This document shows positions 26,623-55,337 of a DNA stretch of 64,000 nucleotides, in pieces. The notes under the pieces are model-generated. The model made no database searches and had not been told where the DNA came from. It saw nothing but the letters and a program-made list of their open reading frames with translations. The position numbers and the translations under genes were made by a program. Source of the DNA: an uncultured Lachnospiraceae bacterium (GTDB taxonomy: Bacteria; Bacillota; Clostridia; Lachnospirales; Lachnospiraceae); the NCBI GenBank assembly GCA_902793335.1, contig CADBCZ010000007.1, forward strand, positions 21,068 through 85,067, given 5' to 3'. Numbering within the stretch: position 1 is the first letter of the stretch; the number at the start of each line of letters is the position of its first letter.

Positions 26623-26645
26623 CATGCAAACAGATTGTTTGTTTT

Positions 26646-33483: not shown

Positions 33484-33502
33484 TAAGAGGATAATTATTA
33501 AA

Positions 33503-34027: not shown

Positions 34028-34046
34028 GGACAAGGAGTCGTATCGG

Positions 34047-34091
34047 TTGTAAAATATATTTATTTGTGATACAATGACTTTTATGTATAAT
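34047..34091 (+). promoter_or_regulatory. Predicted internal promoter before GtrB-like gene (module 1)
   Basis: TTGTAA (34047-34052) and TACAAT (34070-34075) are 17 bp apart. An alternative uses TTGTGA (34064-34069) and a perfect TATAAT (34086-34091) with 16 bp. The equivalent site in module 2 (54210-54238) also has TTGTAA with 17 bp. Confidence 0.5.
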
Positions 34092-34126
34092 CGGGGAACG
34101 ATTGGACTATTTAAGGAGGCTAGCGT

Positions 34127-34843: not shown

Positions 34844-34858
34844 TGAGAGGTATATAAT

Positions 34859-35230
34859 ATGTCTGTAACACTTAGAATACTTTTGATAACATTATCGGTG
34901 TTGGCTCTTGGATATATTATCAGAAAGATAAGATTTTCCAAGATGCAGATAGAGTACGCACTTTTTTGGATAGTGCTTTCGATCATTTTCATTGTACTTG
35001 CAGTTTTTCCGTCTATTGCATATTGGGCTACAGAAATGCTGGGAGTGATGTCTGCTGCCAATCTTATATTTCTGGTAATAATAGGAATACTGCTGCTTAA
35101 GGTGTTTATGATGACGATAGAAATATCTGTTCTGGAGAATAAAGTAAGAGATTTGGTTCAACAACTTGGTATTGACGAGAAGAATAACAGGGATGAATAT
35201 AAAAGAATTCATAATACGGACGATAAGTAA
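34859..35230 (+). CDS. DUF2304 small membrane protein (copy 1)
   Basis: 123 residues, three membrane segments (about 3-20, 33-54 and 66-88) and a charged C-terminal coiled-coil-like tail. This layout and its position right after a DPM1-like transferase fit the DUF2304 family. Function unproven; a membrane partner of the transferase is a reasonable inference. The paralogue at 54975-55337 has the same neighbour. Confidence 0.85.
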   Translation: MSVTLRILLITLSVLALGYIIRKIRFSKMQIEYALFWIVLSIIFIVLAVFPSIAYWATEMLGVMSAANLIFLVIIGILLLKVFMMTIEISVLENKVRDLVQQLGIDEKNNRDEYKRIHNTDDK

Positions 35231-37463: not shown

Positions 37464-40217
37464 ATGGTTAATGTAAGTGTTATTTTTGCTACATATAATA
37501 GAGAAGATGTTATAGGCGCTGTTCTGGATAAATGGAAAGTTGTAAAAGAAAAATCACATTACACTTTTGAAATAATATGTTCTGATGATGCATCTGGTGA
37601 TAAGACAGTGGATATTATTAGAAAATATGAGAATGAGTTACCTATACATATTATAAATAATGAGCATGGTGGCGCTGGTAAGGCAAGAAATAAAGCGTTG
37701 GAAATGGCTTCGGGTGAATTAGTTATATTTACAGGAGACGACATTTTCCCTGATTACAATTTTATAGACAAACATTATGAAAACTATCTAAAGCATGGTG
37801 ATGATTATTGTACATTAGGAAGAATTGAATGGCATGATGAAATTAAATTAAACCATCTTATGCATCATATAACAAATATTGGTTGTGAACAGTTTGGTTT
37901 TGCAGGATTACCACCGTATTCAATAGTTGATTTTAGGCATTTTTATACTTCAAATATTAGTGTTCCCAAGAAGGCATTGGATAATTTGGACTACTATTTT
38001 GATTTGACATTTGATAGATATGGGTTTGAAGATATTGAATTGGGTTATAGAATTCATAAAAACGGAGTGAAGATTTATTATGATCCGGATATAGTAGCAT
38101 GGCATCATCATATTTATGACAGTGTTGAAAAATTTTGTAACAGACAGTTTTCGGCAGGTGATCAATTAGTTGTATTTGGTCAATTACATCCGGAAATTAT
38201 GACTAACCCTATGATTCCTCCGATAAAAGAGTTTGATATTTTCCTTCATAAAATATCAGATGCTTATGGTGAGAAAGAATCGAATATAGGTAATGATATA
38301 CTTGAATGGATTAATAGATCAAAACAAAGAATTGAAGAACTAGAAAGACTAATCGATGAAACAGATAACAATAAAGACAGAATAGAGTGTTCAGCTTTAT
38401 ATCAATTAATATTTCAATTGTACCTGTACATGGGAATAGGAAATAGAATTATTGAATCTAAAATGATGAAGCAGAGTGTGTTGGCTGAGGCAGCGTACAT
38501 GTTTCTTAATAAAGGAATTTTTCAGATATTCTATTCGGGTAATAATGATTTTTACGAAGAAGCATCATATAAATACAATGTTGATAGCGGACATATAGTT
38601 GTAGAGAAGGATTTTGGACAAATAACCACATTACGTATTGATCCGCTAGATTCGCCTTGTGTTTTAAAAGAGTTAAACATTTATTCTAATGGAGATAAAA
38701 TTGATAATATAGAAACCAATGGCGAGAGCAACAACAAATTAGACTTTTCAAAATGTAGCGATCCTCAAGTATTTGTTACTGGATTTGATCCAACTAAGTC
38801 TTATCAAATTAAGATTGATATGTATCTTGATGTCAGCAAGATGATAGAAGACAGGATACAACAAAGAATTGCTGAAGAACTAGCGATTGGAAGAAGTTAT
38901 AAAGAGAGTGTATACCAGGACCGAAGAATAGTTATACAATTAAAAGAAAAAGATTTAGCTTCTCTAGCTGAATCATATAACAAGGTTATTATGCCAATGT
39001 ATGGGGATAAAGTGCGAATTGATACAGTTGGCAAGGATGTTTTGTTTGAAACCCCATATATTTACGAAATAGAAGAAAAACCTCTTTCAGCAAAGGAATT
39101 TGGTTGTTTAGTTGATATACTTTATACAAAATATGTAGATGGTGTTCCGTTAGATAATGGAAGCGTATTTTGTGAATGTTTAAATGCTAATGGAAAAGAT
39201 ATAATAAAGAAAGATTTTACAGAGCTAAATAATAATACATTAAAAGGGATTAACAGTAAGTTATTTAATATTGATGAGCCACTACTATCAGTAATTATTC
39301 CTAGTTATAATCATGAAAAATATATCAAGATAGCGATAGATAGTGTATTAGGACAAAGCTACAGAAATCTTGAATTGATTATTGTAGATGATGGTTCTAA
39401 AGATAATTCTGTCGAGATAATAAAAGAATATAAAGATGATAGAATAACCTTAGTTGTTCAGGAAAATGCCGGTGCCCATAATGCTATAAACAGAGGAATT
39501 GAGTTATCAAAAGGAAAATACATTGCAATACTTAATTCTGATGACTATTATTCATATGATAGATTTAGAATTATGATCGACAGTATTAAAAAAGAAAGCA
39601 AAGTCAGATTTGCATGTTCTTATATTCAAGTTATTGATTCGGATGGAAATAAACTTGGCGTAAAAGAAGGATGGCATAATATGGAGCCGTGGCAGATAAA
39701 AAATGCTAATCTATCATATAAGATGACAAATGATTTTGATTTAAATCTGTTAATAAGTAATTTTACATCGACGACAAGTAATTTTTTGTTTGAACGTTCA
39801 TTATATGAAGAGATTGGTGGAATGAGAAATCTGAGATTTGTTCATGACTGGGATTTTGCACTTAGGGCTGCGGAAGTTACAGAGTGTAAAATGATTGAAG
39901 AACCATTGATGTATTATAGAGTACATAGTACTAATACAATATCTTCTAATCGAAAATGGATGTTATTTGAGATTGCATGGATTTGGGCCGCTAATATTAA
40001 TAGATTTTTTGGCGGAAAGATATTCAGAGAGGAGGACGATAACGTAAGTATAGTTGAATTGGCAGAATCATTGAATTTACAGGGGAATGACAAAGTATTT
40101 TGGATGATTTTGCTTTATATTTCGGCTAAGAAGAAGTGTGGAGTAAAGAAACCCGAAGAGATTTTGCTTGATGATGAACAGTTAAGAAGTCATTTTATTG
40201 ACTATGTTATAGAATAA
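37464..40217 (+). CDS. Tandem GT2 glycosyltransferase with inserted beta-sandwich-like module
   Basis: 917 residues. Domain 1 (about 1-270) is GT2: NVSVIFATYNREDVI, ICSDDASGDKT and IFTGDDIFPDY. Residues about 350-460 hold a module with TTLRIDPLDSPCVLKELNI and CSDPQVFV, similar to modules in three other proteins of this locus. Domain 2 (about 606-917) is again GT2: LLSVIIPSYNHEKYIKIAI, IVDDGSKDNS and ILNSDDYYSY. It probably adds two kinds of linkage to the export glycan; the inserted module may bind glycan. TTA, ATA and AAT codons are much more frequent than in genes before 37 kb. Confidence 0.87.
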   Translation: MVNVSVIFATYNREDVIGAVLDKWKVVKEKSHYTFEIICSDDASGDKTVDIIRKYENELPIHIINNEHGGAGKARNKALEMASGELVIFTGDDIFPDYNFIDKHYENYLKHGDDYCTLGRIEWHDEIKLNHLMHHITNIGCEQFGFAGLPPYSIVDFRHFYTSNISVPKKALDNLDYYFDLTFDRYGFEDIELGYRIHKNGVKIYYDPDIVAWHHHIYDSVEKFCNRQFSAGDQLVVFGQLHPEIMTNPMIPPIKEFDIFLHKISDAYGEKESNIGNDILEWINRSKQRIEELERLIDETDNNKDRIECSALYQLIFQLYLYMGIGNRIIESKMMKQSVLAEAAYMFLNKGIFQIFYSGNNDFYEEASYKYNVDSGHIVVEKDFGQITTLRIDPLDSPCVLKELNIYSNGDKIDNIETNGESNNKLDFSKCSDPQVFVTGFDPTKSYQIKIDMYLDVSKMIEDRIQQRIAEELAIGRSYKESVYQDRRIVIQLKEKDLASLAESYNKVIMPMYGDKVRIDTVGKDVLFETPYIYEIEEKPLSAKEFGCLVDILYTKYVDGVPLDNGSVFCECLNANGKDIIKKDFTELNNNTLKGINSKLFNIDEPLLSVIIPSYNHEKYIKIAIDSVLGQSYRNLELIIVDDGSKDNSVEIIKEYKDDRITLVVQENAGAHNAINRGIELSKGKYIAILNSDDYYSYDRFRIMIDSIKKESKVRFACSYIQVIDSDGNKLGVKEGWHNMEPWQIKNANLSYKMTNDFDLNLLISNFTSTTSNFLFERSLYEEIGGMRNLRFVHDWDFALRAAEVTECKMIEEPLMYYRVHSTNTISSNRKWMLFEIAWIWAANINRFFGGKIFREEDDNVSIVELAESLNLQGNDKVFWMILLYISAKKKCGVKKPEEILLDDEQLRSHFIDYVIE

Positions 40218-42852: not shown

Positions 42853-42870
42853 TTGGAGCGAAGAATTAAA

Positions 42871-44229
42871 ATGACAAAAAAATATATTGCGGTAGCGTTA
42901 TTAGTAAGTATAATTATAGCAGTTTTAGTTGGAATAGTAATGCCTAAAGAGGTTGCCTATAAGAAAAATGATATAGAAGTCGACATAGAAACAAGGTTAG
43001 ACAGTGATTCTGAGTTGGCGCTATATTATTTAACTCAAGATGATACGGATTTTAATGAAGGTCATGTTATAAAACAAACTATAAAAAAGAGTGACAGTTT
43101 CGAAACAGTCAGATTTATATTAGATGAATCATCTATCAAATCAATCAGACTTGATTGTGATGCGTCAGTTTCGTATTGGGATATAAAAAATATAACATTA
43201 AAATCAGATGAAACAGAAACATTAGGCGTAGATGATTTAAGTAGCTTTTATTTCAATGATATAAAAAATACAGAAATAGATGGAGATTATCTCTGCATAT
43301 CTACAGGTGATCTTGATCCGTTTATCAGCAAAGATATAGATGTTAAAGTTGAATATATCAGAAACGAAACTAAACGAATTATAACAATATGTATTATTTG
43401 TTTGTTTTTATTTATAATCATGATGTGGAATTGGCGTATTGTACAGGATATGCTTGTGGGAATTTTTGTTTCAAGAAAACAGATAAAGTCTCTTGCAATC
43501 AGTGATTTTAAAAGTCATTATTCAGGTTCTTATTTAGGAATTGTTTGGGGAATTATTCAACCTTTGATGACAATAATTCTCTTTTGGTTTGTATTCCAAA
43601 AGGCGTTTCACTCAAATCCTGTTTCGAATGCACCATTTATTTTATGGTTGATTGCGGGAATGATTCCATGGAACTTTTTCTCAGATGCATGGGTTAGCGG
43701 TACCAGTTCTTTTATATCTTATAATTATATTGTTAAAAAATTAGTATTTAATATAGATATAATACCTTTAGTAAAGATAATGGGTTCATCGATCATAAAC
43801 TTGATTTTTAATGGAATTTTATTAGTTATATATACATTATATGGCTGGTTCCCGGGAGTTCATTTGATTGATATGTTGTACTTTTCAATATGTGTTACAT
43901 TGTATGCATGGGGACTCTCAATGATAACAGCTACTCTTAATGTTTTTATGAAGGATGTTGGACAATTGTTGAGCGTTGTAATACAGTTTTTGATGTGGCT
44001 GACTCCTGTTATGTGGGATTATCATATGTTGGATGCCCATAGCTTCCTTTATTTAATGAATCCATTGTTTTATATAGTCAATGGTTACAGAGAAGCATTG
44101 ATTGATGGACAGTGGTTTTTCCATCAATATAATTTGATGCTGTATTTTTGGTTTGTAACAATAATTGTAAATATAATCGGTATTCGATTAATGAAAAAGT
44201 TAAGGCCGCACTTTGCGGATGTTTTGTAA
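42871..44229 (+). CDS. wzm: ABC-2 polysaccharide export permease with extra N-terminal outside domain (exporter 2)
   Basis: 452 residues, far longer than the usual roughly 260. Residues about 5-27 are an extra membrane segment; 30-168 form an outside domain containing SIKSIRLDCDASVSYWDI, similar to modules elsewhere in the locus; about 169-188 is a second membrane segment. From about 195 the normal permease follows (FKSHYSGSYLGIVWGIIQPL, LWLIAGMIPWNFFSD) with six segments. It probably exports the polymer, and the outside domain may contact it. ATG 42871 is favoured over TTG 42853. Its ATPase partner is next. Confidence 0.87.
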   Translation: MTKKYIAVALLVSIIIAVLVGIVMPKEVAYKKNDIEVDIETRLDSDSELALYYLTQDDTDFNEGHVIKQTIKKSDSFETVRFILDESSIKSIRLDCDASVSYWDIKNITLKSDETETLGVDDLSSFYFNDIKNTEIDGDYLCISTGDLDPFISKDIDVKVEYIRNETKRIITICIICLFLFIIMMWNWRIVQDMLVGIFVSRKQIKSLAISDFKSHYSGSYLGIVWGIIQPLMTIILFWFVFQKAFHSNPVSNAPFILWLIAGMIPWNFFSDAWVSGTSSFISYNYIVKKLVFNIDIIPLVKIMGSSIINLIFNGILLVIYTLYGWFPGVHLIDMLYFSICVTLYAWGLSMITATLNVFMKDVGQLLSVVIQFLMWLTPVMWDYHMLDAHSFLYLMNPLFYIVNGYREALIDGQWFFHQYNLMLYFWFVTIIVNIIGIRLMKKLRPHFADVL

Positions 44230-44247
44230 TAGTTTGAGGTGAATATA

Positions 44248-45540
44248 ATGGCAGAAAGTGTAATACAAGTAGATCATTTATCAAAAATGTATAGATTATA
44301 TGACAATAATATAGATAGGGTAAAAGAAGCATTAAATCCTAGAAAAGTTAATTTACATAAAGAGCATTATGCATTGAATGATATTAATTTTACTGTAGAG
44401 AAGGGTGAAACAGTTGGAATAATAGGTACCAACGGATCTGGTAAATCTACGTTGTTAAAAATAATTACAGGAGTTCTTACACCTACATCAGGTGCTGTAA
44501 ATGTCAATGGCAGAATATCTGCATTGCTTGAATTGGGTGCTGGTTTTAATCCTGATTATACGGGAATAGAAAATGTATATTTAAATGGTGCAATGCTTGG
44601 ATTTTCTAAGCAGGAAATGGATGAAAAACTAGATGAGATTCTTGAATTTGCAGATATAGGTGATTTTGTTAATCAGCCAGTTAAGACATATTCATCGGGT
44701 ATGTTTGTAAGACTTGCATTTGCTGTTGCTATTAATATTGAGCCAGAGGTTCTTATAGTTGATGAAGCTTTATCTGTTGGAGATATATTCTTTCAAGCAA
44801 AGTGTTTTAGAAAATTTGAAGAATTTAAAAAGGAAAATAAAACTATTCTTTTTGTAAGTCATGACTTAGGAAGTATTAATAAATACTGTGATAGAGTAAT
44901 CCTTTTAAATTCGGGAAATGTTGTAAAAGAGGGTAAACCAAAAGAAATTATAGATATTTATAAAAAGATTTTGGTAAACCAATATGATGAAGATGCAGAT
45001 GTTGAGAATGATGAACAAGAACAAGATGAAAACATTTCTCAGGAAATTATTAATGAAAATGATACTCAGGAATGGAAGACACAATTCAATATCAATCCTA
45101 ATGTCGTAGAGTATGGCGACAAAAAGGGAGAAATAGTTGATTTTTGTATAATGGACTCAAACGGAGTAATAACAAACAGTGTTGAAAAGGGTAAGGATTT
45201 TTATGTTAAAATGAGAATCCAATTTCATGGTGATATATATGAACCAATATTTGCATATACGATAAAAGATCGTATGGGTACAGAATTAGCAGGAACAAAC
45301 ACATTATATGAAGACATTCCGGTAGGAGAAAAACATGATGGCGATATGGTCGAGGTGACTTTCAAACAACGAATGAATCTTCATGGTGGTGAATATTTGA
45401 TATCATTTGGATGTACAAGTTATGAGCAAATGGATTTTGTTGTATATCATAGATTATATGACGCATGCAATATAACGGTGATATCATCTAAAAATTCAGT
45501 TGGCTATTTCGATTTAAATAGTCAAATAACCATTAAGTGA
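44248..45540 (+). CDS. wzt: ABC polysaccharide export ATPase with Wzt C-terminal glycan-binding domain (exporter 2)
   Basis: 430 residues. Walker A GIIGTNGSGKST, signature YSSGMFVRLAFAVAI and Walker B VLIVDEALSVGDIFF. An acidic linker near 250-270 (DEDADVENDEQEQDENI) leads to a beta-rich C-terminal domain (about 280-430: IVDFCIMDSNGVITNSVEKG and YLISFGCTSYEQMDFVVYHR) of the Wzt-C type. In E. coli O8/O9a this domain recognises the modified non-reducing end of the polymer before export. ATG 44248 follows GAGGTGA. The following methyltransferase and kinase-like genes fit that mechanism. Confidence 0.9.
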   Translation: MAESVIQVDHLSKMYRLYDNNIDRVKEALNPRKVNLHKEHYALNDINFTVEKGETVGIIGTNGSGKSTLLKIITGVLTPTSGAVNVNGRISALLELGAGFNPDYTGIENVYLNGAMLGFSKQEMDEKLDEILEFADIGDFVNQPVKTYSSGMFVRLAFAVAINIEPEVLIVDEALSVGDIFFQAKCFRKFEEFKKENKTILFVSHDLGSINKYCDRVILLNSGNVVKEGKPKEIIDIYKKILVNQYDEDADVENDEQEQDENISQEIINENDTQEWKTQFNINPNVVEYGDKKGEIVDFCIMDSNGVITNSVEKGKDFYVKMRIQFHGDIYEPIFAYTIKDRMGTELAGTNTLYEDIPVGEKHDGDMVEVTFKQRMNLHGGEYLISFGCTSYEQMDFVVYHRLYDACNITVISSKNSVGYFDLNSQITIK

Positions 45541-45547
45541 TATGTTT

Positions 45548-45558
45548 GGGGGGTGATC
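45548..45558 (+). promoter_or_regulatory. Extended Shine-Dalgarno deciding a TTG start
   Basis: GGGGGGTGATC matches the 16S rRNA 3' end over an unusually long stretch (GGTGATC perfect) two bases before TTG 45561. It argues for that TTG as the methyltransferase start. Confidence 0.75.
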
Positions 45559-45560
45559 TC

Positions 45561-46487
45561 TTGAAAGAAAAAATAGGTGGAGTAAGTTTAAATTATGAGT
45601 ATTACTCTGGAAAAGATTTTTATTCTGATGGAATGATAGAAGATGTATTGTTAGATATTGTAAAAAATAATTCTAAAGATAAGTATGACCATATAATATA
45701 CGAAAAATCAGAATGGCCAATATTGTACCATCTTTCACCTGTTAGAGAGAATATTATAGAGTGGATTCCGTTTAAAGAAAATGCAAAAGTTCTTGAAATA
45801 GGTTCCGGATGCGGAGCCATTACAGGTAAGTTGGCCGAAAAAAGCGGTAATGTCACTTGCGTAGAGTTATCAAAAAAAAGAAGCCTGATAAATGCATATC
45901 GTAATAAAGAAAAAAATAATATAGAAATAATGGTTGGTAATTTTCAGGATATTGAAAAAAATCTGGATGATGACTATGACTATATCTTATTGATTGGTGT
46001 TTTAGAGTATGCTGCATCATATATAAAAAGTAATTCTCCTTATAGAGAATTTTTGGATATTATAAAAAAACATCTTTCAACTAATGGCAAAATTATAGTG
46101 GCTATTGAAAATAAATACGGTTTAAAGTATTGGGCCGGTTGTAAAGAAGATCATGTCAGTCTGTTTTATGAAGGGATAGAGGATTATATTCATACGAATA
46201 GTGTAAGAACATTTTCGAAGAAAGAATTGATATCTCTACATGAATCATGTGGATTAAATATACAAGCATTTTATTATCCATATCCGGACTACAAATTGCC
46301 ATTGCAGATATTTTCAGATGAATATCTTCCTAAATGCGGGGATTTGACAAATAATCTTTTGGCTCTTGATAATGATAGAATTGTCTCGTTTGATGAATCA
46401 AGAGTATATGATAGTCTTATACGTGATGGGATGTTTCAAGATTTTTCTAATTCTTTTCTGATAATATCAGGAATGGAGGAGTTATAA
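45561..46487 (+). CDS. SAM-dependent methyltransferase, possible glycan chain-capping enzyme
   Basis: 308 residues. Class I methyltransferase core: AKVLEIGSGCGAITGKLAE (SAM-binding motif I), VTCVELSKKRS (acidic residue after strand 2) and YILLIGVLEYAASY. About 40 residues precede the core. The TTG start is supported by a very strong Shine-Dalgarno. The gene ends 0 bp before the kinase-like gene and follows the Wzt with a glycan-binding domain. This order suggests it methylates the chain end, like the methyltransferase half of WbdD. Other substrates are possible. Confidence 0.82.
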   Translation: MKEKIGGVSLNYEYYSGKDFYSDGMIEDVLLDIVKNNSKDKYDHIIYEKSEWPILYHLSPVRENIIEWIPFKENAKVLEIGSGCGAITGKLAEKSGNVTCVELSKKRSLINAYRNKEKNNIEIMVGNFQDIEKNLDDDYDYILLIGVLEYAASYIKSNSPYREFLDIIKKHLSTNGKIIVAIENKYGLKYWAGCKEDHVSLFYEGIEDYIHTNSVRTFSKKELISLHESCGLNIQAFYYPYPDYKLPLQIFSDEYLPKCGDLTNNLLALDNDRIVSFDESRVYDSLIRDGMFQDFSNSFLIISGMEEL

Positions 46488-48296
46488 ATGAAAAATAATA
46501 TTTATACTAAATATTCAATCGAGCGAAAAGAAGAATTTAAAATAAAAACATGTATTTATGAAGAAAATGGCTTAAAATGGGTTGAAAAAAACGCAGAGAA
46601 TGAAAAATCCATAGCCCATATTAAGAAATTAAATAGTAATTATAAAAAGTTATCAGCTATCTTCGACAAGGATGTTTTAGTTAATGAATGTGTTGATAAG
46701 GGAGATAAATTAAATTTTCAATTTGTTAATGGACAAACACTTGAAGAAATGATGGATGATTGTATAAAAAATGAAGACTATGATGAGGTAGTCAACTTAA
46801 TGAAAAGCTATTATCAAAAAATAGTTTGTAAATTACCATCAGCTGAGAAAAAAATTACTACAGAATTTATAGATATATTTGGGAATGTAGAGGATTTAGA
46901 ACTAAATTACGTTTCTCCGTCTCCGATAGATATCGTTTTTTCCAATGTAATTATTGATGATAATTGGAATATTATTGATTATGAGTGGACATTTGATTTT
47001 CCGGTACCTGCCAATTTTATATTATACAGGGCAGTTGTTGATTATCTGTATAAATCAAATAAAAGAACGATTCTTTGGGATAAGAGTATTCTTGAACAAT
47101 TAGGTATAGATGAAAAACAACAGATAGTATTTAGAAAAATGGATCAGCATTTTCATGAATATGTAAATGGTGATTGCGTGAGCCTGGGGTTGATGAGTCA
47201 ACGGTTCAATCATAATAAATATGATTTGTTATCTTTGCAGAACAAGTACGTTCCCGGAAAAATTCAAGTGTTCTTTGACTATGGTGGTGGCTTTAGCGAA
47301 GATAAATCAAAATATATTAATGGTTTATGTAATAATGATGGAAGTTTTACTATTGATATTGAAATACCTAAGGATGTTAAATCAATCAGAATTGATCCGG
47401 CAGACAGGGAATGTATAATTAAGATTAACAAGTTTCAGTATGATGGCTGTGATTGTAGTTATATTGACAATGGAATCGAGCTGGAAAAAAATCTCAAATT
47501 ATATCAAACAGACGATCCACAATGGATTTTGAATAATTTAAAAGAAGAGAAAAAAATATCTATAGATTTTTTCGTTTGTGATATAACAAAACAAATTGCC
47601 GAATATCTTAATTTACATTATTTGAAAGAAGAGAACAAACTGCCATTAGGGATGATACAGGCTTTCTTTGATGAAGGGAAAGGCTTTTGTGAGGAGTCAT
47701 CAAAATTTATTCAGTGTAAAAAAGACGAAAAAGGTTTCTATAGTACGACGATAGAGATTGATAATGAAACAGTAGCTTTACGTATTGATCCTATTGATAG
47801 ACAATGCATTATTAAAATTAATAAAATTTCTACTAATGAAACAGATTTAGAATTTGATAATAATGGAATATCGTTAGACTACAATTTATTCATGTATAAT
47901 ACAGATGATCCACAATGGATTATTAAAGATTTGAAGCAGGGAGATAGTATCTATATAGAATTCTGTATAGAAGATATTTCTTCAGAGATGTCAAATATAT
48001 TATGTGATTATATAAGCATTAACGATAAAAAACACAGGATAGCACAGGATAAAATAGCTAGACAGATGGATGAAATCAAAAGATTAAATAATATAACTGA
48101 AGACTTAGATACTCAGATTGAAAAGTTGAGATCTGGTATAGAAAAAGCAGATAATGAGATTGCCGGTTTGAAGAATGAATTGTTATCAAAAGAAAATACT
48201 ATTAATGAAATACAAAACTCATTATCATGGAGAATTACAAAGGGGTTAAGGGTTGCCGGAGGAATAATTCTTGAAAAGGACGAAGAAAAAGAGTAA
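46488..48296 (+). CDS. Kinase-like protein with two beta-sandwich modules and C-terminal coiled coil (WbdD-like ruler candidate)
   Basis: 602 residues. Residues 1-245 resemble a small-molecule/protein kinase fold: GLKWVEKNAEN, a hinge-like FQFVNGQTLEEMM, and DIVFSNVII with NIIDYEW as the catalytic and metal-loop candidates; the usual HGD is not clear. Two repeats follow (about 254-374 and 384-504), each with QxFFDxGxGF, LRIDP/IRIDP and TDDPQWI. A coiled coil (about 511-577) and an amphipathic SLSWRITKGLRVAGG end complete it. With the methyltransferase gene just upstream, the order methyltransferase-kinase-coiled coil matches WbdD, which caps chains and sets their length. Function inferred. 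Confidence 0.7.
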   Translation: MKNNIYTKYSIERKEEFKIKTCIYEENGLKWVEKNAENEKSIAHIKKLNSNYKKLSAIFDKDVLVNECVDKGDKLNFQFVNGQTLEEMMDDCIKNEDYDEVVNLMKSYYQKIVCKLPSAEKKITTEFIDIFGNVEDLELNYVSPSPIDIVFSNVIIDDNWNIIDYEWTFDFPVPANFILYRAVVDYLYKSNKRTILWDKSILEQLGIDEKQQIVFRKMDQHFHEYVNGDCVSLGLMSQRFNHNKYDLLSLQNKYVPGKIQVFFDYGGGFSEDKSKYINGLCNNDGSFTIDIEIPKDVKSIRIDPADRECIIKINKFQYDGCDCSYIDNGIELEKNLKLYQTDDPQWILNNLKEEKKISIDFFVCDITKQIAEYLNLHYLKEENKLPLGMIQAFFDEGKGFCEESSKFIQCKKDEKGFYSTTIEIDNETVALRIDPIDRQCIIKINKISTNETDLEFDNNGISLDYNLFMYNTDDPQWIIKDLKQGDSIYIEFCIEDISSEMSNILCDYISINDKKHRIAQDKIARQMDEIKRLNNITEDLDTQIEKLRSGIEKADNEIAGLKNELLSKENTINEIQNSLSWRITKGLRVAGGIILEKDEEKE

Positions 48297-50514
48297 TAAT
48301 CATGTAATTGTATATATTTTGTATATTTTTCTCGGGGAAATTATTATACTAAACAGCCTTTTGTTTTGGCTGTCAGTCACATGGCATAATCTTAATGTTG
48401 ATGAAATAATGTTTCATTTGAGTAATCCTATTGAAGGAACGAATAAGGATGTTATTTATAATGCATTACTATATGTGATTATAGGAATATTGGTTTACGT
48501 TCCTTTTATTTTTGTGTTGAAAAAAATAAAGGAAAAGGATTTTAATAAATATATTGTTGTTATATATTCAATCATATTGTTCTTTTTAATTTTGTTTTGT
48601 TTTAAACTACAAAATACGGTGAATTTATTCTCTTATGTACAAAACCAATATATTGATTCAACTTTTATTAAAAAAAATTATGTCTCTCCGGAAGAAACAC
48701 AAATAACGTTTCCTGATAAAAAAAGGAATTTAATATATATATATCTTGAGTCGATGGAAGTTAGTTATGCAAATAAAGAAAATGGTGGTGGGTTTGATGA
48801 GAATTATATACCTGAACTGACACAATTAGCGAAATCAAATATTTGTTTTACGGATAATGACAATATAAATGGAGCATATTCATTGTATGGAACAACTTGG
48901 ACTATGGGAGGTATGTTTGCAGAGTCTACAGGGTTACCTTTAAAAACCAATGTGTATAATAGTATGGAAAAACAAGATGATTTTTTTCCTAATATTGTTT
49001 CTATTGGAGATGTTTTAAAAGAACAGGGATATAATAATGAAATTATTGTTGGCTCAGATATAGTATTTGGTGGAAGAGAAAAATTTTATAAAACACATGG
49101 TGATTATTCCATTTTTGACTATATATACGCTAAAGATAATAATTATATTCCAGAGGATTATTACGAGTTTTGGGGTTTTGAAGATGAAAAACTTTTTGAA
49201 TATGCAAAACAGGAGTTACGGAAATTGTCAACTTCAAAAGAACCATTTAATCTAACTCTGCTTACTGTTGATACCCACTTTGAAGATGGATATGTTTGTC
49301 GTTTATGTAACAAGGAATATGGTGATAATCAGTATGCAAATGTTATAAGATGTTCAAGTAGACAGGTTTATGATTTTGTTGAATGGATAAAAGAGCAGGA
49401 TTTTTATGATAATACGACAATTGTTTTATCAGGTGATCATCCGACAATGGACACAGATTTTTGTGATTCACTGAACTCTGATTACCAAAGAAGAGTTTAT
49501 ACGGCATATATTAATTCTCCCAAAGAACCAATCAATAATACATACAGATTATATTCTACTTTTGATTACTTTCCAACAACTATATCTGCACTGGGAGCAG
49601 ATATATCAGGTGGAAAATTAGGTTTGGGTGTTGATCTGTTTTCTAATGAGGAGACTATTGTTGAGCGATACGGATATGATAAATGCATGGTGGAATTGTC
49701 GAGAAAATCGGATTTTTATGATGAATTAGAGAGCGTTGAACTGACTGATGAATTAATACAAAATCTCGAAAATGAATCATGTATCAACATTAATAGGGAT
49801 AGTGAGAATTGGGATATTAATGTACAGTTAGCTTTTCCGGTACACAGTATAAGTTTATATAAAGGATTATATATTAGATATAAAGATAGTAATGATAAAT
49901 CCAAGTATACAGAGAAAAAAATATATGTGTCTGATGAAACAATAACTGATTATAATTTTAAAATTAATAATAAAAAAATCCCAAGTGGTAAAATTGATGT
50001 TCAAATAGTTATAAAAACAAATGATAAAAACGAATACATAATTCTTTCTTATTATGATATCGCTGATTCGACAGATTTTGAGACGTTTCTTTCACAAATT
50101 GATACTAAAAAGTATTCTGTTTTTATTTCGGCACGTGACGAAGCTGCAACTAATTTATCAAATGAAGTAATGAACAAACTGCACGAAATGGGTATTAATA
50201 CTCAGATTAATATAGATGGATTTAGAAAAAGCTATTACGCAATAATAGTTGACGGGAAAGTGGTTGAGGACTTAAGAGAAGATAAATTAAAAATAGTAGG
50301 CGGTGATAAACGATATAATTTAGAGTACGAGGTGATTAGCGAGGGATACGATAGTGGAAACTATAGTTCTATCATTATAAACAATAAAGAGTATTCAATG
50401 AATATGCGAGGATTAAATATAGTATTATATGATAATGAAGCAAAGAGAGTTGTCAAATCTGTAAATTATGATACATATCTTGATTCGGCTTGTAGAATGA
50501 TGGAAGTAGATTGA
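48271..50514 (+). CDS. LTA synthase-like phosphoglycerol transferase (copy 1, intact)
   Basis: 747 residues. Three membrane segments at the N-terminus, then an outside sulfatase-fold domain: LIYIYLESMEVSY (metal Glu), SLYGTTWTMGGMFAESTGLP with the probable catalytic Thr, LTVDTHFEDGY and LSGDHPTMD. These match LtaS/MdoB-type enzymes that move glycerol phosphate from phosphatidylglycerol to a glycan. About 270 residues follow the catalytic domain, without a recognised family. The TTG start follows GGAGGA at 7 bp and lies inside the end of the preceding gene (26-bp overlap), so translation is likely coupled. Confidence 0.87.
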   Translation: MKRTKKKSNNHVIVYILYIFLGEIIILNSLLFWLSVTWHNLNVDEIMFHLSNPIEGTNKDVIYNALLYVIIGILVYVPFIFVLKKIKEKDFNKYIVVIYSIILFFLILFCFKLQNTVNLFSYVQNQYIDSTFIKKNYVSPEETQITFPDKKRNLIYIYLESMEVSYANKENGGGFDENYIPELTQLAKSNICFTDNDNINGAYSLYGTTWTMGGMFAESTGLPLKTNVYNSMEKQDDFFPNIVSIGDVLKEQGYNNEIIVGSDIVFGGREKFYKTHGDYSIFDYIYAKDNNYIPEDYYEFWGFEDEKLFEYAKQELRKLSTSKEPFNLTLLTVDTHFEDGYVCRLCNKEYGDNQYANVIRCSSRQVYDFVEWIKEQDFYDNTTIVLSGDHPTMDTDFCDSLNSDYQRRVYTAYINSPKEPINNTYRLYSTFDYFPTTISALGADISGGKLGLGVDLFSNEETIVERYGYDKCMVELSRKSDFYDELESVELTDELIQNLENESCININRDSENWDINVQLAFPVHSISLYKGLYIRYKDSNDKSKYTEKKIYVSDETITDYNFKINNKKIPSGKIDVQIVIKTNDKNEYIILSYYDIADSTDFETFLSQIDTKKYSVFISARDEAATNLSNEVMNKLHEMGINTQINIDGFRKSYYAIIVDGKVVEDLREDKLKIVGGDKRYNLEYEVISEGYDSGNYSSIIINNKEYSMNMRGLNIVLYDNEAKRVVKSVNYDTYLDSACRMMEVD

Positions 50515-50562: not shown

Positions 50563-52149
50563 TTGAAAAAGTTGAATTATATTACACTTTTTTTGGTCTC
50601 ATTATTTATAAGTATAATATTTTTTTATACTGAAATTGAAGCAAAACAAACGACGGTTTGTTATTTGATAAAAGGTGAAATTAAAGATGTCCCAATAGAT
50701 TTTTACAATGGCAATTATTTTTACAAGTCAACTAATGTTAAGGTTCTTAAATTTACAGACACAGGAAAGATGAAAGCTTTAAAAAGTGGAAACGCTACTG
50801 TAATATTAACGCACTTTGACGCTAACAATAAACCAATCAGGAAAAAGATTAAAGTAAAAGTACAGGATAAAGTTCAAGGACTTAAATTGAAAAATAAGAT
50901 TAAGACTCTTAATCTTGGTGAAGAACATGATTATGAATTGGGATATAAAGTAAAATCTAAGAAAAACATAGTTTTTAAATGGAGTTCTTCTAATCCGGCA
51001 GTGGCAGCTGTAGATCAGAATGGAAAAGTAACAGCCATAAGTGTAGGAACTGCGAAAATAAAATGTGGTGTCGAGGGACAGAAAAAAGCATCAGTATCAA
51101 CTAAAATTAAGGTTGTTACGGTGCCGGTAAAAGAACTTAAAGTAGAAAAGAATGAACTTACAATGAAGCTTGATTCATGCTATAACATTAACGAAAAGGT
51201 TTCAGTATATCCGGAGAATGCAACCAATAAGCTTTTGGAAACAAGTTCGCAGAACGAGAATGTGGTTAAGGTGGAGTATGGTGTTTTATATGCGGTTGAG
51301 AAAGGACAAACTACCGTAACGATTGAAGCTGCTGATGGTTCAGGATGTAAACAGGTAGTTAATGTGATCGTAGATGATTGGATAGAACGTGATGATGTAC
51401 ATTTTGTTGCTCATAGGGGATTAAGCGGGGAAGCTCCGGAAAATTCACTAAGAGCATTTGAACTGGCAGGAAAAAATGGTTTCTATGAAACAGAATGTGA
51501 TATATGGATTAGTAAGGATGGGCAATTTGTTATAAGTCATGATGGTAATTTGTATCGTATGTGTGGTGTGAACAAGGAGATTAGAGATCTTACTTACGAT
51601 GAGATTTGTAAATTACCTATTAAGTGTGGTTGCAATTACCTCAATTATAAAGATGATAAAATGGCAACAACAATACCAACACTGAAACAATATCTTGAAA
51701 TATGTAAGTTTTATAACATGGTACCGATGATTGAGATTAAGTTTTCTGCGGGTAATGCAGAAATGGCTGATAGTAACGTGTTATATAGATTATATACAGA
51801 AATTAATGCCGTAATGGGTGATGCAAGTGTTTCTGTAATTTCGTTTAATCAGGATATTATTAAGAATATGAATGAGATTATAAAAAAGAAGCAAGCATCT
51901 AATATTAAACTTTATTTGCTTGGAGGTAATTATACTGATGTATCTGATATACCGGATTATAGATATTATATTCAGAATAATATAGGTTTTTCTCTTGAAC
52001 AGCATACAAGTGAAAATGTAATTCATCAAATGATTGAAGATGGTGCAAAGGTGGGCTTGTGGACTGTTGATAGTCCTGATAATGTTAAAAAATATATTGG
52101 TTGGAAAGTAGATTTTATTGTTTCTGATTGTGTTTTATGGAAGCAATAG
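50563..52149 (+). CDS. Secreted Ig-like/BIG2 and glycerophosphodiester phosphodiesterase protein
   Basis: 528 residues. Signal peptide (about 1-27, KKLNYITLFLVSLFISIIFF). Three Ig-like bacterial domains follow (about 30-280; for example FKWSSSNPAVAAVDQNGKVT). The C-terminal 250 residues are a GDPD barrel: VAHRGLSGEAPENSLRAF, ETECDIWISKDG, VISHDGNLYRM and MIEIKF contain the expected His, Glu and Asp residues. It could cleave glycerol phosphate from glycans or phospholipids outside the cell. The TTG start follows AGGGAG. It sits next to a phosphoglycerol transferase gene. Confidence 0.87.
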   Translation: MKKLNYITLFLVSLFISIIFFYTEIEAKQTTVCYLIKGEIKDVPIDFYNGNYFYKSTNVKVLKFTDTGKMKALKSGNATVILTHFDANNKPIRKKIKVKVQDKVQGLKLKNKIKTLNLGEEHDYELGYKVKSKKNIVFKWSSSNPAVAAVDQNGKVTAISVGTAKIKCGVEGQKKASVSTKIKVVTVPVKELKVEKNELTMKLDSCYNINEKVSVYPENATNKLLETSSQNENVVKVEYGVLYAVEKGQTTVTIEAADGSGCKQVVNVIVDDWIERDDVHFVAHRGLSGEAPENSLRAFELAGKNGFYETECDIWISKDGQFVISHDGNLYRMCGVNKEIRDLTYDEICKLPIKCGCNYLNYKDDKMATTIPTLKQYLEICKFYNMVPMIEIKFSAGNAEMADSNVLYRLYTEINAVMGDASVSVISFNQDIIKNMNEIIKKKQASNIKLYLLGGNYTDVSDIPDYRYYIQNNIGFSLEQHTSENVIHQMIEDGAKVGLWTVDSPDNVKKYIGWKVDFIVSDCVLWKQ

Positions 52150-52187: not shown

Positions 52188-54206
52188 ATGATTAAGTTAA
52201 GATATTTTTTCTGGAAAAATAAAAAGATAAGTTGTAAGATTGCAGGCTTTTTATTTTTGATCCTATTGATTATAGTATGTTCATGTTTTACATACTTTAA
52301 TTATATTATTCCGGCATCTCAAAGGACAGACACTGTAGCAATAGTTGATACTTTGGGCGTTGAGAATAATAGTGAAGTATATATCAATGATGGTGTGGAA
52401 GCTTATCAAACATTTGTGGGAGAGAAGTATGGTATTTCAACTATTAAAATAAGAGTTAATACCGACGGTAAAAAAGAAAATGGTAATCTTATAATTAGTT
52501 TGGAGGATCAAACTAATAATGAAATTATAAATAAATGGGATAAAAAAATATCTAAAATTAATTCTGACGGCATAATCAAGTTAAAACTGAAAAAACAGAT
52601 AAAAGATGCATCTGCAAAAACCTATTGTTTAAGAATAGAAGGGGAAGGACTTGATAAAAACAAAGTATCTATATATGAATCAGAAGAGGATGCTTTTGCA
52701 AGTGGACAGTTATTTGTAGATGATAACCCGACAGCAGGAGATATGCTGTTTGCTGTTATTCCTTCTAAGGTAAATAATCATTTCATTTTAAAATACTATA
52801 AATGTGTAATACTGTTTTTGGCAATTGTACTGATTTTGATATGGTTTATGGTATTTGCAAGAAAAGAATATGCAATAGAACGTGTTTTTCTTATTTTTAC
52901 TTTGACTTTCGGTATGGCATATCTTCTTGTAATGCCCGCATATTCGGCACCGGATGAAATTGCACATTTTGCAACGGCATACAGACTGTCTAATAAAATG
53001 ATGCATGTTGAGGGGGATAATGACGAAGAATATGCTTTATGTAGACAGGAAGATACCATAAAAAGAGAACTGAATTTCACTACAACATTAGAAACGTATA
53101 GATATATCAGATTAAATCTGTTTACAAAGAATGATAATAAAGATAATGCGGTCTTTACCGGTGCAAAAGTGTTGCAGAACACATCGGTAGTTGCACATTT
53201 AGCTCAAGCGACAGGAATATCAATTGCCAGAGCCTTGAATTTAAGCGATGTGGCACTGTGTTTTTTGGGACAATTTTGTGTATTTATCTTTTATACGATA
53301 TTGGTCTTTTTCGCTATTAAGATAACGCCGGTAGGTAAGCAGATATTTTTTGCTATCTCCTCATTTCCGATGGTTATGAGTATTGTTCCGTCATTTTCAT
53401 ATGATCCGGTGATTTACGGATTGTCGTTTATTTTAATAGCCATTATTTTAAGACTGATATATGGTGTTGAGAAGGTAACGCTTAAAGATTGCATTATATG
53501 TATAATATTTTCACTGTTATTAGCACCGTGTAAAATGGTCTACAGTTTTATATCTTTGTTGGTTATTCTGATACCTGACAGGAAATTCAAGAATAAGAAA
53601 AGTGCAAATCTCTTTAAGATTATTACTGTAGTTGCATCAATAGTATATGCATTTATATCTAATGCATCTGCGGTTGCAGACAGTTCTTCGGGTGTCAAGA
53701 TGATAGAATGGGCCGGTGCTCAGGGATTTACTTTGACTGATCTTTTAAGTGACATTCCGGGAACAATTAATATGTATTTAATGACCATACATGAATACAT
53801 GGGGTATTATCTTAATACCATGATTGGCGGCGAGCTGGGTTGGTTAAATGTTATTATGCCGATGGATATAATTATATTATCATTAATAGTATTGGTGTTG
53901 TCGCTTAGGGAAGAAAGAGTTAAGAGAATAACTGATATACAGAAGGTTATTTATGTATGTGATTTTTTACTGATTGCGGCTCTTATATGTACGTCTTTAT
54001 TGCTGGGATGGACGCATATATACAGTAAAGTTATTTTAGGAATACAGGGTAGATATTTTATTCCAATCCTTCCATTGTTGCTGCTTCCGTTTGTCGGAGC
54101 AACAAAAAAAGAGGAGATTAATGCGCGCAAATGGGTTATTATGGGAGCGTGTATGATTAACTTTTTTGTTGTTTTAAGAGTGTTTGAAATTAATGTTTTA
54201 AGATAA
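52188..54206 (+). CDS. DUF2142 membrane protein, probable GT-C-like glycosyltransferase (copy 2)
   Basis: 672 residues. One N-terminal membrane segment, an outside domain (about 45-195) and about ten more segments. YSAPDEIAHFATAYRLSN, SFSYDPVIYG, GELGWLNVIMP and GIQGRYFIPILP align by eye with the DUF2142 paralogue at 30553. The acidic PDE motif faces outside, as expected for an enzyme using a polyprenyl-phosphate sugar. It opens the second side-group module. The outside domain differs from that of copy 1, so specificity may differ. Confidence 0.85.
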   Translation: MIKLRYFFWKNKKISCKIAGFLFLILLIIVCSCFTYFNYIIPASQRTDTVAIVDTLGVENNSEVYINDGVEAYQTFVGEKYGISTIKIRVNTDGKKENGNLIISLEDQTNNEIINKWDKKISKINSDGIIKLKLKKQIKDASAKTYCLRIEGEGLDKNKVSIYESEEDAFASGQLFVDDNPTAGDMLFAVIPSKVNNHFILKYYKCVILFLAIVLILIWFMVFARKEYAIERVFLIFTLTFGMAYLLVMPAYSAPDEIAHFATAYRLSNKMMHVEGDNDEEYALCRQEDTIKRELNFTTTLETYRYIRLNLFTKNDNKDNAVFTGAKVLQNTSVVAHLAQATGISIARALNLSDVALCFLGQFCVFIFYTILVFFAIKITPVGKQIFFAISSFPMVMSIVPSFSYDPVIYGLSFILIAIILRLIYGVEKVTLKDCIICIIFSLLLAPCKMVYSFISLLVILIPDRKFKNKKSANLFKIITVVASIVYAFISNASAVADSSSGVKMIEWAGAQGFTLTDLLSDIPGTINMYLMTIHEYMGYYLNTMIGGELGWLNVIMPMDIIILSLIVLVLSLREERVKRITDIQKVIYVCDFLLIAALICTSLLLGWTHIYSKVILGIQGRYFIPILPLLLLPFVGATKKEEINARKWVIMGACMINFFVVLRVFEINVLR

Positions 54207-54209
54207 TAT

Positions 54210-54238
54210 TTGTAAATTCAGTATGCTTATGTTATTAT
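54210..54238 (+). promoter_or_regulatory. Predicted internal promoter before GtrB-like gene (module 2)
   Basis: TTGTAA (54210-54215) and TATTAT (54233-54238) are 17 bp apart, in the same place relative to the transferase gene as the promoter of module 1. Confidence 0.55.
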
Positions 54239-54275
54239 CCTAGACGTAGATTTATGTGATTTAGAGGTGGCACTA

Positions 54276-54965
54276 GTGAAAAAATTGGTTATTATTCCTG
54301 CGTTTAATGAGCAGGCAAGTATTCAAAAAACAGTTCAGGACATTAAGGATAATGCTCCTGATTTTGATTACATAGTAATAAATGATTGCTCCACAGATGA
54401 TACACTTAAGGTCTGTGAAGAGAATGGTATTAATGTATTGAAGTTACCGGTTAATCTGGGGATTGGCGGCGCTGTTCAGTCGGGATATCTATATGCATAT
54501 AGGAATGGTTATGACGTTGCTGTACAGTTTGATGGCGATGGTCAGCACAGTGCAAAGTACCTGGGTGAGATGGCAAAAACTCTCACAGATAATGAGGCTG
54601 ATATGGTAATAGGTTCTAGATTTATTACTAATGAAGGTTTTCAGTCATCTTTTATGAGAAGAGTTGGAATCAAGCATTTTAATGTACTGATTAAAATGCT
54701 AACCGGAGCAACGGTTACGGATCCTACTTCAGGAATGCGTATGGTAAATCGTGATATAATTAAATTGTTTTCATTGGATTATCCAAAGGATTATCCTGAA
54801 CCGGAAAGTGTAGTACAGATTATATCTATGGGTAAAAAAGTTGTAGATGTACCTGTTATTATGAATGAAAGAACAGAGGGAGTATCTTCTATTTCTCCGG
54901 GAAAATCTATTTATTATATGATTAAAGTTACTATAGCAATGATAATTGCTCGTATTAGAAAGTAG
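54276..54965 (+). CDS. Polyprenyl-phosphate glycosyltransferase, GtrB/DPM1-like (copy 2)
   Basis: 229 residues from a GTG start that follows AGAGGTGG; this start gives the N-terminus MKKLVIIPAFNEQ, in line with its paralogue. Motifs are INDCSTDDTLK, VQFDGDGQHSAKYL (metal-binding DGD), IGSRF and DPTSGMRMVN. Predicted to load a sugar onto undecaprenyl phosphate. It is clearly related to the protein at 34127 and is likewise followed by a DUF2304 gene. Confidence 0.88.
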   Translation: MKKLVIIPAFNEQASIQKTVQDIKDNAPDFDYIVINDCSTDDTLKVCEENGINVLKLPVNLGIGGAVQSGYLYAYRNGYDVAVQFDGDGQHSAKYLGEMAKTLTDNEADMVIGSRFITNEGFQSSFMRRVGIKHFNVLIKMLTGATVTDPTSGMRMVNRDIIKLFSLDYPKDYPEPESVVQIISMGKKVVDVPVIMNERTEGVSSISPGKSIYYMIKVTIAMIIARIRK

Positions 54966-54974
54966 GTGTGACAA

Positions 54975-55337
54975 ATGACAATTCGACTTCAGATAGTGAT
55001 AGGAATAATGCTTGCAATTGCGGTTGTTTCGATAATTAACATGATAAGAAAGAAGAAGTTTGATTTAAGATATGGATTAAGCTGGTTATGTATGCTGGTA
55101 GTTGCACTTGTTCTGGATATTTTTCCGGGTATAGTTTTTGGACTGGCTCATCTTATAGGCATTGATTTACCGTCTAATATGGTATTCTTCGTTGGCTTGA
55201 TATTTGCAATTTTACTGATTTTTACAACTGCAGTATCAGTAAGCAGAATGTCTGACAGAATGAAGAAGCTTACACAGGAACTCGCTTTGGTACAAAAAGA
55301 GTTGGATGAATTAAAGAAACATCAAGAGGATAAATAA
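54975..55337 (+). CDS. DUF2304 small membrane protein (copy 2)
   Basis: 120 residues with three membrane segments and a charged tail (QELALVQKELDELKKHQ) that could form a coiled coil. Same layout and context as the protein at 34859. Probably a partner of the transferase encoded 9 bp upstream. Confidence 0.85.
   Translation: MTIRLQIVIGIMLAIAVVSIINMIRKKKFDLRYGLSWLCMLVVALVLDIFPGIVFGLAHLIGIDLPSNMVFFVGLIFAILLIFTTAVSVSRMSDRMKKLTQELALVQKELDELKKHQEDK

Follow-up and report, generated by a model that had tools for sequence, protein, structure and literature searches.

Probable methyl-phosphate capping of an exported surface glycan by a Lachnospiraceae ABC-transporter locus

How chain termination is coupled to export is understood mostly from Gram-negative O antigens, and to our knowledge little is known about the surface glycans of Lachnospiraceae. 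The locus described here, from an uncultured member of this family that is kin of common gut species, raises the question of whether a Gram-positive lineage caps its exported glycans in a comparable manner: a methyltransferase gene (MT) and a gene coding for a composite protein (P7) follow an ABC transporter whose ATPase bears a Wzt_C domain.

Layout of the exporter locus and fold of P7

The genes wzm, wzt (with Wzt_C), MT and P7 are arranged head to tail in the window, i.e. the whole 64,000-nt stretch that was analysed (Table 1). The first-pass annotation had placed MT directly before P7 and both after a Wzt with Wzt_C, and the open reading frames and the Pfam match bear out this order and its coordinates. 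P7 starts with an ATG preceded by ggagg, while MT starts with a TTG that has a run of G immediately upstream, in a frame open from 45537. The Wzt_C domain also matched the PDB entries 8dky (E 2e-6), 6o14 (E 2.5e-6) and 2r5o (E 4.3e-6), the last of which we take to be the C-terminal domain of E. coli O9a Wzt. Further upstream, a two-domain GT2 protein is a possible candidate for the polymerase. No Rfam match was found within positions 22000-64000 of the window, and a promoter scan performed no better than on shuffled sequences.

Table 1. Features of the exporter locus (window positions; P7 domain limits are approximate and follow the model)
Feature	Position	Strand	Basis
Two-domain GT2 protein, beta module between its GT domains	37464..40217	+	
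Wzm-like ABC permease, 458 aa	42853..44229	+	Pfam ABC2_membrane, E 5e-19
Wzt-like ABC ATPase, 433 aa	44239..45540	+	Pfam ABC_tran, E 5e-26
Wzt_C domain, Wzt aa 290-426	45106..45516	+	Pfam PF14524, E 9.5e-41
Class I SAM methyltransferase (MT)	45561..46487	+	Pfam Methyltransf_12, E 1e-8
P7, 602 aa: predicted kinase, two beta domains, coiled coil	46488..48296	+	AlphaFold2 model
Predicted APH-type kinase domain, P7 aa 1-235	46488..47192	+	Foldseek and invariant residues
Predicted beta domain 1, P7 aa 256-365	47253..47582	+	AlphaFold2 model
Predicted beta domain 2, P7 aa 387-495	47646..47972	+	AlphaFold2 model
Long helix, proposed coiled-coil spacer, P7 aa 499-589 (91 residues)	47982..48254	+	AlphaFold2 model
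C-terminal SLSWRITKGLR, P7 aa 578-588	48219..48251	+	

Comparison of P7 with Pfam and NCBIfam returned nothing above cut-off, and its only match among PDB sequences was at chance level (E 0.67). The AlphaFold2 model (mean pLDDT 84.8, pTM 0.55) reproduced the layout read earlier from the sequence, with a kinase-like part, two beta domains and a single C-terminal helix. Foldseek searches with this model retrieved aminoglycoside phosphotransferases (APH), the best being APH(3')-Ia (E 5.7e-6), and WbdD was absent among the 50 rows listed. Residues K34, D148, N153, D164, E166 and W167 were invariant in all 30 aligned rows. The kinase-like fold previously proposed for residues 1-245 is thus retained by structure prediction, as an APH-type kinase rather than the eukaryote-like kinase of WbdD, and on this ground we rejected P7 as carrying a WbdD orthologue. 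Since the kinase is of APH type, the closest characterised enzyme is ORF6 of Klebsiella pneumoniae O7, not WbdD.

Pairing of MT and kinase with one class of Wzt_C

Among 150 genomes of the same family, the window's own included, 71 carried MT, of which 70 also carried Wzt_C (the exception being G076) and 70 a P7 match (the exception being G117). When Wzt_C domains were divided at 130 bits, a cut set after the scores were seen, MT lay at most 6 kb downstream of 66 of the 76 high-scoring domains, the class to which the window belongs, compared to 0 of the 36 low-scoring ones; counting P7 matches as well brought the former to 71 of 76. The MT-kinase pair is therefore near-exclusively tied to one Wzt_C class. 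These counts uphold the earlier proposal of a chain-terminator pair linked to a Wzt with Wzt_C in a Gram-positive lineage, whereas the comparison with WbdD holds only by half, the kinase being APH-type.

The pair also holds together across loci. All 120 other loci examined, chosen by a match to either MT or P7, contained both partners, fused or as neighbours, indicating that their adjacency is not due to chance. A strict adjacency rule was satisfied by 107 of 121 loci (the window and the 120 others), the other 14 being split pairs whose stop-to-stop frames overlap by more than 30 nt. Wzt_C was found in 117 of the 121 and was not seen in the available stretch of L040, L064, L072 and L140. A kinase accompanied MT in 80/80 loci found with the MT alignment (56 fused, 24 adjoining), which is not an unbiased test because these were the best 80 of 539 and the alignment derives from P7; a strict test placed Wzt_C upstream in 76 of them, and it is visible on the map in three of the remaining four. 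The alignment itself comprises the window MT and 21 relatives picked for strong matches (50-62% identity), taken from loci found with P7 and keeping only MT matches with E up to 1e-100, so that MT conservation as well as the 80/80 result is biased. Starting from P7, 7 of 40 family neighbourhoods, mostly the higher scorers among 82 genomes with a P7 match, had no MT match at E < 1e-40, with a weaker one present in all; four of the 82 (G007, G016, G047 and G096) matched the beta or coil part only.

Fusion, beta modules and the coiled coil

Duplicate loci (L084, L074, L152 and L122) were removed for the tree and for counts over 117 distinct loci, and kept in 121-row counts. MT and kinase, separate genes in the window, were fused in 73 of the 117. 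The first-pass annotation had described the parts as divided over two genes; the best MT tree (107 rows, leaving out 10 rows without a long MT) needs 12 fused/split changes, with weak support (stars on 24 of its 104 inner branches; L060, L069, L055, L064 and L071 on long branches), and we rejected the split as a special arrangement in favour of a common alternation. By raw counts, 43 of the 44 split loci have a coil and 15 of the 73 fused ones do, coils being called by a home-made, uncalibrated heptad rule. Fusion as the cause of coil loss was also rejected, as a single fused clade of 50 rows lacks the coil in 49, and an independent-pairs test yielded four pairs, on starred branches, and had no power.

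Of the 117 distinct loci, 100 have a beta module after the kinase and 20 a GT domain, and two beta modules occurred in 3 of 121 rows, including the window. By analogy, beta domain 1 may be CBM-like; no CBM match was obtained for the P7 beta domains, and their profile comparison with Wzt_C was negative. The window Wzm carries an N-terminal extension (about residues 1-190), and a profile built from 12 extensions of this kind showed kinship with the beta module (hhalign, probability 95.7; E 8.5e-9 in a single comparison). Three proteins from the same family of bacteria (L170, L171 and L173) have no kinase and combine the same beta module and a coil with a methyltransferase different from the window MT (Methyltransf_23 best). 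The natural fused homologue from Clostridium puniceum (L078) models as MT-kinase-beta-coil (pLDDT 88.3), and in the Foldseek list for this model WbdD came 17th and 22nd (E 4.9e-9 and 6.2e-9, low TM-scores) over 560 and 548 columns. Such long alignments are not unique to WbdD, since Rickettsia PKMT2, which is no MT-kinase, aligned over about 600 columns.

As for the coil, 58 of 117 distinct loci were fused, coil-less by the same rule and devoid of a C-terminal GT, and the nearest relative, L073, has no coil either; the coil is thus not needed for the module. Where present, it bears tandem repeats in 8 of 61 coding stretches (58 distinct, duplicate loci included), with periods of 21, 42 or 84 nt, all whole-heptad. 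Copy numbers come from draft genomes and may include assembly errors, and because the periodicity of the coil itself favours whole-heptad periods, the repeats are weak evidence. L096 and L103 share 94.6% identity, and the difference between them within the coil amounts to exactly 7 residues, one heptad. Of 38 distinct rows with a coil and no GT, 10 carry an S-SW--T motif, among them the window with its C-terminal SLSWRITKGLR. The heptad repeats and the L096/L103 pair make the earlier suggestion of a length ruler plausible, whereas the coil-less clade and L073 deny it generality.

Proposed capping mechanism and known terminators

We consider it likely that the gene pair terminates the chains of a surface glycan whose export depends on an ABC transporter. 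In the cytoplasm, GT proteins would extend a lipid-linked chain until the APH-type kinase of P7 phosphorylates its non-reducing end; MT, perhaps in a complex with P7, is proposed to methylate this phosphate, thereby stopping growth, after which Wzt_C would read the cap and let the finished chain pass through Wzm. A probable role of the beta domains is to bind the chain as it grows, and that of the coiled coil is probably to keep the catalytic head at a distance from the membrane or polymerase, which would restrict capping to chains that have reached a minimum length. We are aware of neither a glycan structure nor an enzyme assay for any of the loci.

Kinase and MT could instead act on different groups at the chain end, placing a phosphate, perhaps cyclic, on one hydroxyl and an O-methyl on another, or the sugar could be methylated while the kinase acts elsewhere. 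Precedents for either cap alone appear in excerpts of two papers, on the Clostridioides difficile SLCT-11 S-layer glycan, whose terminal residue is a cyclic phospho-rhamnose that bears no methyl (PMC6254364), and on WsaE of Geobacillus stearothermophilus, which caps rhamnose with 2-O-methyl (PMC2943079), and L170, L171 and L173 do without a kinase in the same family. Their methyltransferase differs from the window MT, however, P7 matches accompany MT in all but one MT-bearing genome, and for the ORF6-O7 enzyme, a presumed homologue, methylation of the phosphate is described in excerpts of PMC11231755; we regard this alternative as unlikely. Quite unlikely, too, is a target away from the chain end, whether every repeat unit, a primer or the carrier lipid, with Wzt_C reading another feature: the genes around the pair include GT genes and probable decoration genes, but its near-exclusive pairing with one Wzt_C class argues against this, as does recognition of the terminal moiety of the glycan by the transporter CBM in the characterised systems (excerpts of PMC11231755). 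A further alternative concerns the ruler only and overlaps in probability with the terminator reading: capping would be right and the coil would serve merely for oligomerisation or anchoring. With the coil missing from 49 rows of the 50-row clade and from L073, this has a substantial, somewhat less than even chance, against which stand, weakly, the heptad-period repeats and the L096/L103 difference.

If the terminator reading is true, a methyl-phosphate end group is predicted, a kinase missed by Pfam and NCBIfam acquires a function, and natural coil-length variants could be used for testing the ruler idea. A close counterpart of Gram-negative terminators, in a layout already known from Klebsiella and E. 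coli, recurs across many Lachnospiraceae genera. Far more tentatively, about half of the sampled genera might make a phosphate-capped, length-measured surface polymer, their terminators being exchangeable catalytic heads, either MT with the APH-type kinase or a different methyltransferase by itself, on a shared beta-module and coil frame whose ruler evolves by whole-heptad duplication; with the beta module also on the GT protein and the Wzm extension, one domain type would handle the chain in growth, capping and export. No Lachnospiraceae methyltransferase-kinase terminator was named in the titles and abstract openings found; the 2019 survey by Mann, Kimber and Whitfield (Glycobiology, doi 10.1093/glycob/cwz066), reportedly the most relevant, may already report such loci.

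Among known systems, the SLCT-11 glycan as described is, like the one proposed for the window, Gram-positive and exported by an ABC transporter, and it carries a phosphate at its non-reducing end, which its authors connect with termination; it differs in that this end is a cyclic phospho-rhamnose (excerpts of PMC6254364), and the words methyltransferase and kinase have 0 occurrences in the main text. WsaE shares a Gram-positive host, a methyltransferase-made cap and Wzm/Wzt export, but its cap is an O-methyl and its three domains include two rhamnosyltransferases, with no kinase in the excerpted description (PMC2943079). WbdD of E. coli O9a and K. pneumoniae O3 has the same MT-kinase-coil order, spread over two genes in the window, and the proposed methyl-phosphate cap, cap-reading Wzt and ruler. 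In excerpts of PMC3482155 its kinase is likened to eukaryotic protein kinases, in contrast to the APH-type kinase of P7, and beta domains are not mentioned.

Of the characterised systems, ORF6 of K. pneumoniae O7 comes closest, linked to the window pair via a proxy from Pseudomonas asturiensis. Encoded directly after an ABC permease and ATPase, the proxy has the six SAM-site residues Y28, Y66, G91, G93, E112 and Y158 at the positions numbered in excerpts of PMC11231755. It shares 30.5% identity with the window MT over 90% (E 2e-32 in a two-sequence set); its kinase region reaches only 35 bits, with F at position 441 and the aligned Asp at 443. According to the same excerpts, ORF6 adds methyl-phosphate in vitro, loses kinase activity upon D441A substitution, and is ordered as MT, APH/AmiN-like kinase, Ig-like domain, coiled coil and GT2s; orthologues ending after the coil exist, so the GT2 part does not strictly define the type. 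The GT domain that follows the kinase in 20 of the 117 distinct loci is a further likeness of those loci to ORF6. The window may share this domain order up to the coil, with its predicted beta domains as putative counterparts of the Ig-like domain; it has in common with ORF6 the predicted APH/AmiN-like kinase with its catalytic Asp (D148) and a proposed ABC-transporter-dependent glycan, and differs in being Gram-positive, in having two beta domains and in encoding MT and kinase as separate genes with no GT2 on P7.

Gene set in the window and the fold of its kinase

Four genes, lying head to tail on the + strand at 42853-48296, code for a Wzm-like permease, a Wzt-like ATPase with a Wzt_C domain, a class I SAM methyltransferase (MT) and a 602-residue protein (P7), and thereby confirm the gene order and the Wzt extension proposed in the first-pass annotation. 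P7 gave no Pfam or NCBIfam match above cut-off and one chance-level match in a PDB sequence search; its own genome holds one P7 match, while MT finds itself and one weak other (E 1.3e-4). The AlphaFold2 model of P7 (30-row alignment; mean pLDDT 84.8, pTM 0.55) comprises a kinase domain, two beta domains and a single helix at residues 499-589, as had been described from sequence. Foldseek against PDB placed APH(3')-Ia at the top (E 5.7e-6, 13% identity); except for one Bud32-Kae1 entry, all 50 matches listed are antibiotic phosphotransferases. WbdD is absent from these, and the kinase is APH-type rather than a member of the WbdD family. Residues K34, D148, N153, D164, E166 and W167, invariant in 30/30 alignment rows, include what we take by motif to be the lysine that binds ATP, the catalytic Asp, and the Asn and Asp that bind metal.

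A beta module comes after the kinase in 100/117 distinct loci, and another is found on a GT2 protein of the window. The profile of the Wzm N-terminal extension also matches the beta-module profile (hhalign E 8.5e-9, one comparison); the same comparison with Wzt_C gave no match. This extension, seen in 13/121 loci including the window, L078 and L081, would by a guess from sequence lie outside the cell, where it could be a glycan-binding part of the exporter.

Features of the window and of loci from relatives
Feature	Coordinates	Remarks
Second ABC-2 type permease and ATPase	26606-28332	275-aa ATPase without Wzt_C match
DUF2142 membrane protein, GT2, DUF2304	30553-35230	plus GtrA-type and extra GT2 genes; looks like an extracytoplasmic glycosylation system
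Wzm with N-terminal extension	42853-44229	
MT	45561-46487	TTG start, as in the first-pass annotation; run of G immediately 5'; stop abuts P7
P7	46488-48296	ATG start
Sulfatase-fold protein	48271-50514	resembles phosphoglycerol transferase I; ILEI matches
GDPD protein with Big_2 repeats	50563-52149	next gene; with the preceding, possible glycerophosphate decoration and removal
Second DUF2142, GT2, DUF2304 set	52188-55337	looks like an extracytoplasmic glycosylation system
L153, Citrobacter braakii plasmid MT protein	11923-13872	FEREW in kinase part where the family has IDYEW; plasmid also has ABC permease and ATPase, dTDP-rhamnose genes
L170, kinase-less protein	4699-6114	450-472 aa (range for L170, L171, L173)
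L171, kinase-less protein	5479-6867	as L170
L173, kinase-less protein	11978-13327	as L170
L174, fused MT-kinase	7579-9414	upstream of its Wzt_C ATPase, usual order reversed
L045, L051, L062, L078, L079, L081, L103, L133, tandem repeats		stretch after kinase or beta module

Spread of the module and its pairing with Wzt_C

Of 150 same-family genomes, sampled at one per genus and counting that of the window, 82 have P7 matches, four through the beta or coil part only, and 71 have MT at E 1e-20. The family is taken to be Lachnospiraceae, to which Anaerosacchariphilus and Roseburia belong, as kinase proteins of this set recur unchanged on named contigs. Across the phylum, 10 of 299 sampled genomes carry MT, and six of the 10 fall outside the family; a small number of relatives, e.g. 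C. puniceum, are Clostridium sensu stricto. Within the window's genus, P7 matches were limited to 5/26 genomes, counting that of the window, and the module is thus patchy at species level.

We examined 120 other loci (40 family-genome neighbourhoods and the best 80 of 539 by MT alignment) together with the window. MT is fused to the kinase or adjoins its gene in 121/121, the ORFs of split pairs ranging from an overlap of 249 nt to a gap of 19 nt. Wzt_C and Wzm matches lie somewhere in the stretch in 117 and 113 loci, respectively, the usual order being Wzm, Wzt with Wzt_C, MT, kinase and GT2 genes. The best 80 of 539 comprise 56 fused and 24 split loci; 76/80 have an upstream Wzt_C by a strict rule, and since the gene maps of L097, L113 and L124 do show the domain, L140 alone remains without it. 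The rule is passed by 36/40 family loci, L061 being a further overlap case; no Wzt_C was seen in L040, L064 and L072.

By score, the Wzt_C domains of the 150 genomes separate into a high class (76 domains, ≥134 bits) and a low class (36 domains, ≤121 bits). MT lies within 6 kb downstream of 66/76 high-scoring domains (57 of them within 500 bp) and of 0/36 low-scoring ones (Fisher p 1.4e-20, in a test that ignores relatedness); five more high-scoring domains have a P7 match within 6 kb downstream. At 71/76 versus 0/36, Wzt_C class and enzymes are associated, which would be expected of a domain that reads the enzymes' product. The low-scoring class is not wholly free of MT-kinase, since in G023 a fused protein (that of L174) lies immediately upstream.

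Twenty loci were taken from the surroundings of low-scoring Wzt_C domains or of beta-only matches, and six proteins from them were scanned with Pfam. Those of L170, L171 and L173 combine a different methyltransferase (Methyltransf_23 best) with a beta module as in the P7 family and a coil-like tail bearing S-SWK-T or a similar motif. The kinase-protein profile matches only the beta part of L170 and L171 (starting at residue 239) and finds no match in L173, hence no kinase is seen in these proteins. Directly downstream of Wzt in L170 and L171, and upstream of it with one GT gene between in L173, they are perhaps other chain terminators.

The coil and the ruler proposal

The first-pass annotation proposed the coil as a chain-length ruler. 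Coil length varies widely between loci (by an uncalibrated coil rule), and 8/61 coil-coding stretches (58 distinct) contain tandem repeats whose period is 21, 42 or 84 nt. The alignment of L096 and L103 (94.6% identical) has one gap of 7 aa within the coil, and the tree neighbours L078 and L081 differ there by 14 gap columns. Such whole-heptad differences would be expected of a ruler tuned in heptad steps, but heptad-sized changes are also the ones that coiled coils in general accommodate most readily. L073, whose MT is nearest to that of the window (63% identity), has the split arrangement and a kinase protein of 415 aa lacking a coil, and a 50-row clade is fused in 50/50 and coil-less in 49/50. 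The repeats and gaps fit a ruler, these absences count against it, and we rate its chances as about even. Because of that clade, the association of coil with split state (43/44 split versus 15/73 fused loci) is not independent evidence; the best MT tree (107 rows) requires 12 changes of fused/split state and 8 of coil state.

Comparison with known chain terminators

WbdD combines a methyltransferase with a kinase similar to the protein kinases of eukaryotes, and ends in a coil (excerpt of PMC3482155). For a model of the fused homologue in L078 (pLDDT 88.3, pTM 0.76), structure matches included WbdD twice, at rank 17 over 560 alignment columns and at rank 22 over 548, long enough to span both domains. 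TM-scores are low (0.16-0.29) and rmsd is 19, the top matches are mostly lone methyltransferases, and the Rickettsia PKMT2 alignment is as long as that of WbdD. Of the WbdD likeness first proposed, the parts hold up and a WbdD-like working of the pair is likely; the kinase is of another type.

K. pneumoniae O7 ORF6 comprises a methyltransferase, an AmiN-like kinase, an Ig-like CBM, a coiled coil and two GT2 domains, and adds methyl-phosphate in vitro, phosphorylation being abolished by D441A (excerpts of PMC11231755). We compared it through a proxy, a 1457-aa Pseudomonas asturiensis plasmid protein directly following an ABC permease and ATPase. The proxy has Y28, Y66, G91, G93, E112 and Y158 at the positions numbered for ORF6-O7 in the same excerpts; the window MT counterparts, aligned by eye, are Y29, Y64, G89, G91, E110 and Y158. 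It scores 201 bits with the MT profile and only 35 bits with the kinase-beta profile, its IDAVPQN aligning to the D148 region; the aligned Asp is 443, and position 441 is F, unlike D441 of ORF6-O7. The C. braakii protein matches MT (207 bits) and hardly the kinase (0.1 bits), with none of the six residues at ORF6-O7 numbers. According to the excerpted text, no CBM was known in other terminators; our beta module is a putative CBM.

MT is 50-62% identical to the window copy in 21 rows, picked for strong matches, and the kinase protein only 23-32% in 29 rows. Better conservation of MT would be expected if the phosphate is constant and the sugar bearing it differs.

Capping in Gram-positives is not new: Geobacillus stearothermophilus WsaE caps with 2-O-methyl rhamnose (excerpt of PMC2943079), and the Clostridioides difficile SLCT-11 S-layer glycan ends in a cyclic phospho-rhamnose, for which the authors suggested a termination role (excerpt of PMC6254364). 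The pairing of MT with an APH-type kinase may be new there. We consider the predicted capping model reasonably likely, and the module is probably a methyl-phosphate chain terminator like that of K. pneumoniae O7, in Gram-positive bacteria. It is split, as first proposed, and the split recurs among relatives. By analogy, the kinase-less and MT-kinase proteins would be similar to two K. pneumoniae terminators, methyl for O5 and phospho-methyl for O3 (excerpt of PMC11231755). Whereas ORF6-O7 is one protein, the window divides methyltransferase and kinase over two separate genes.
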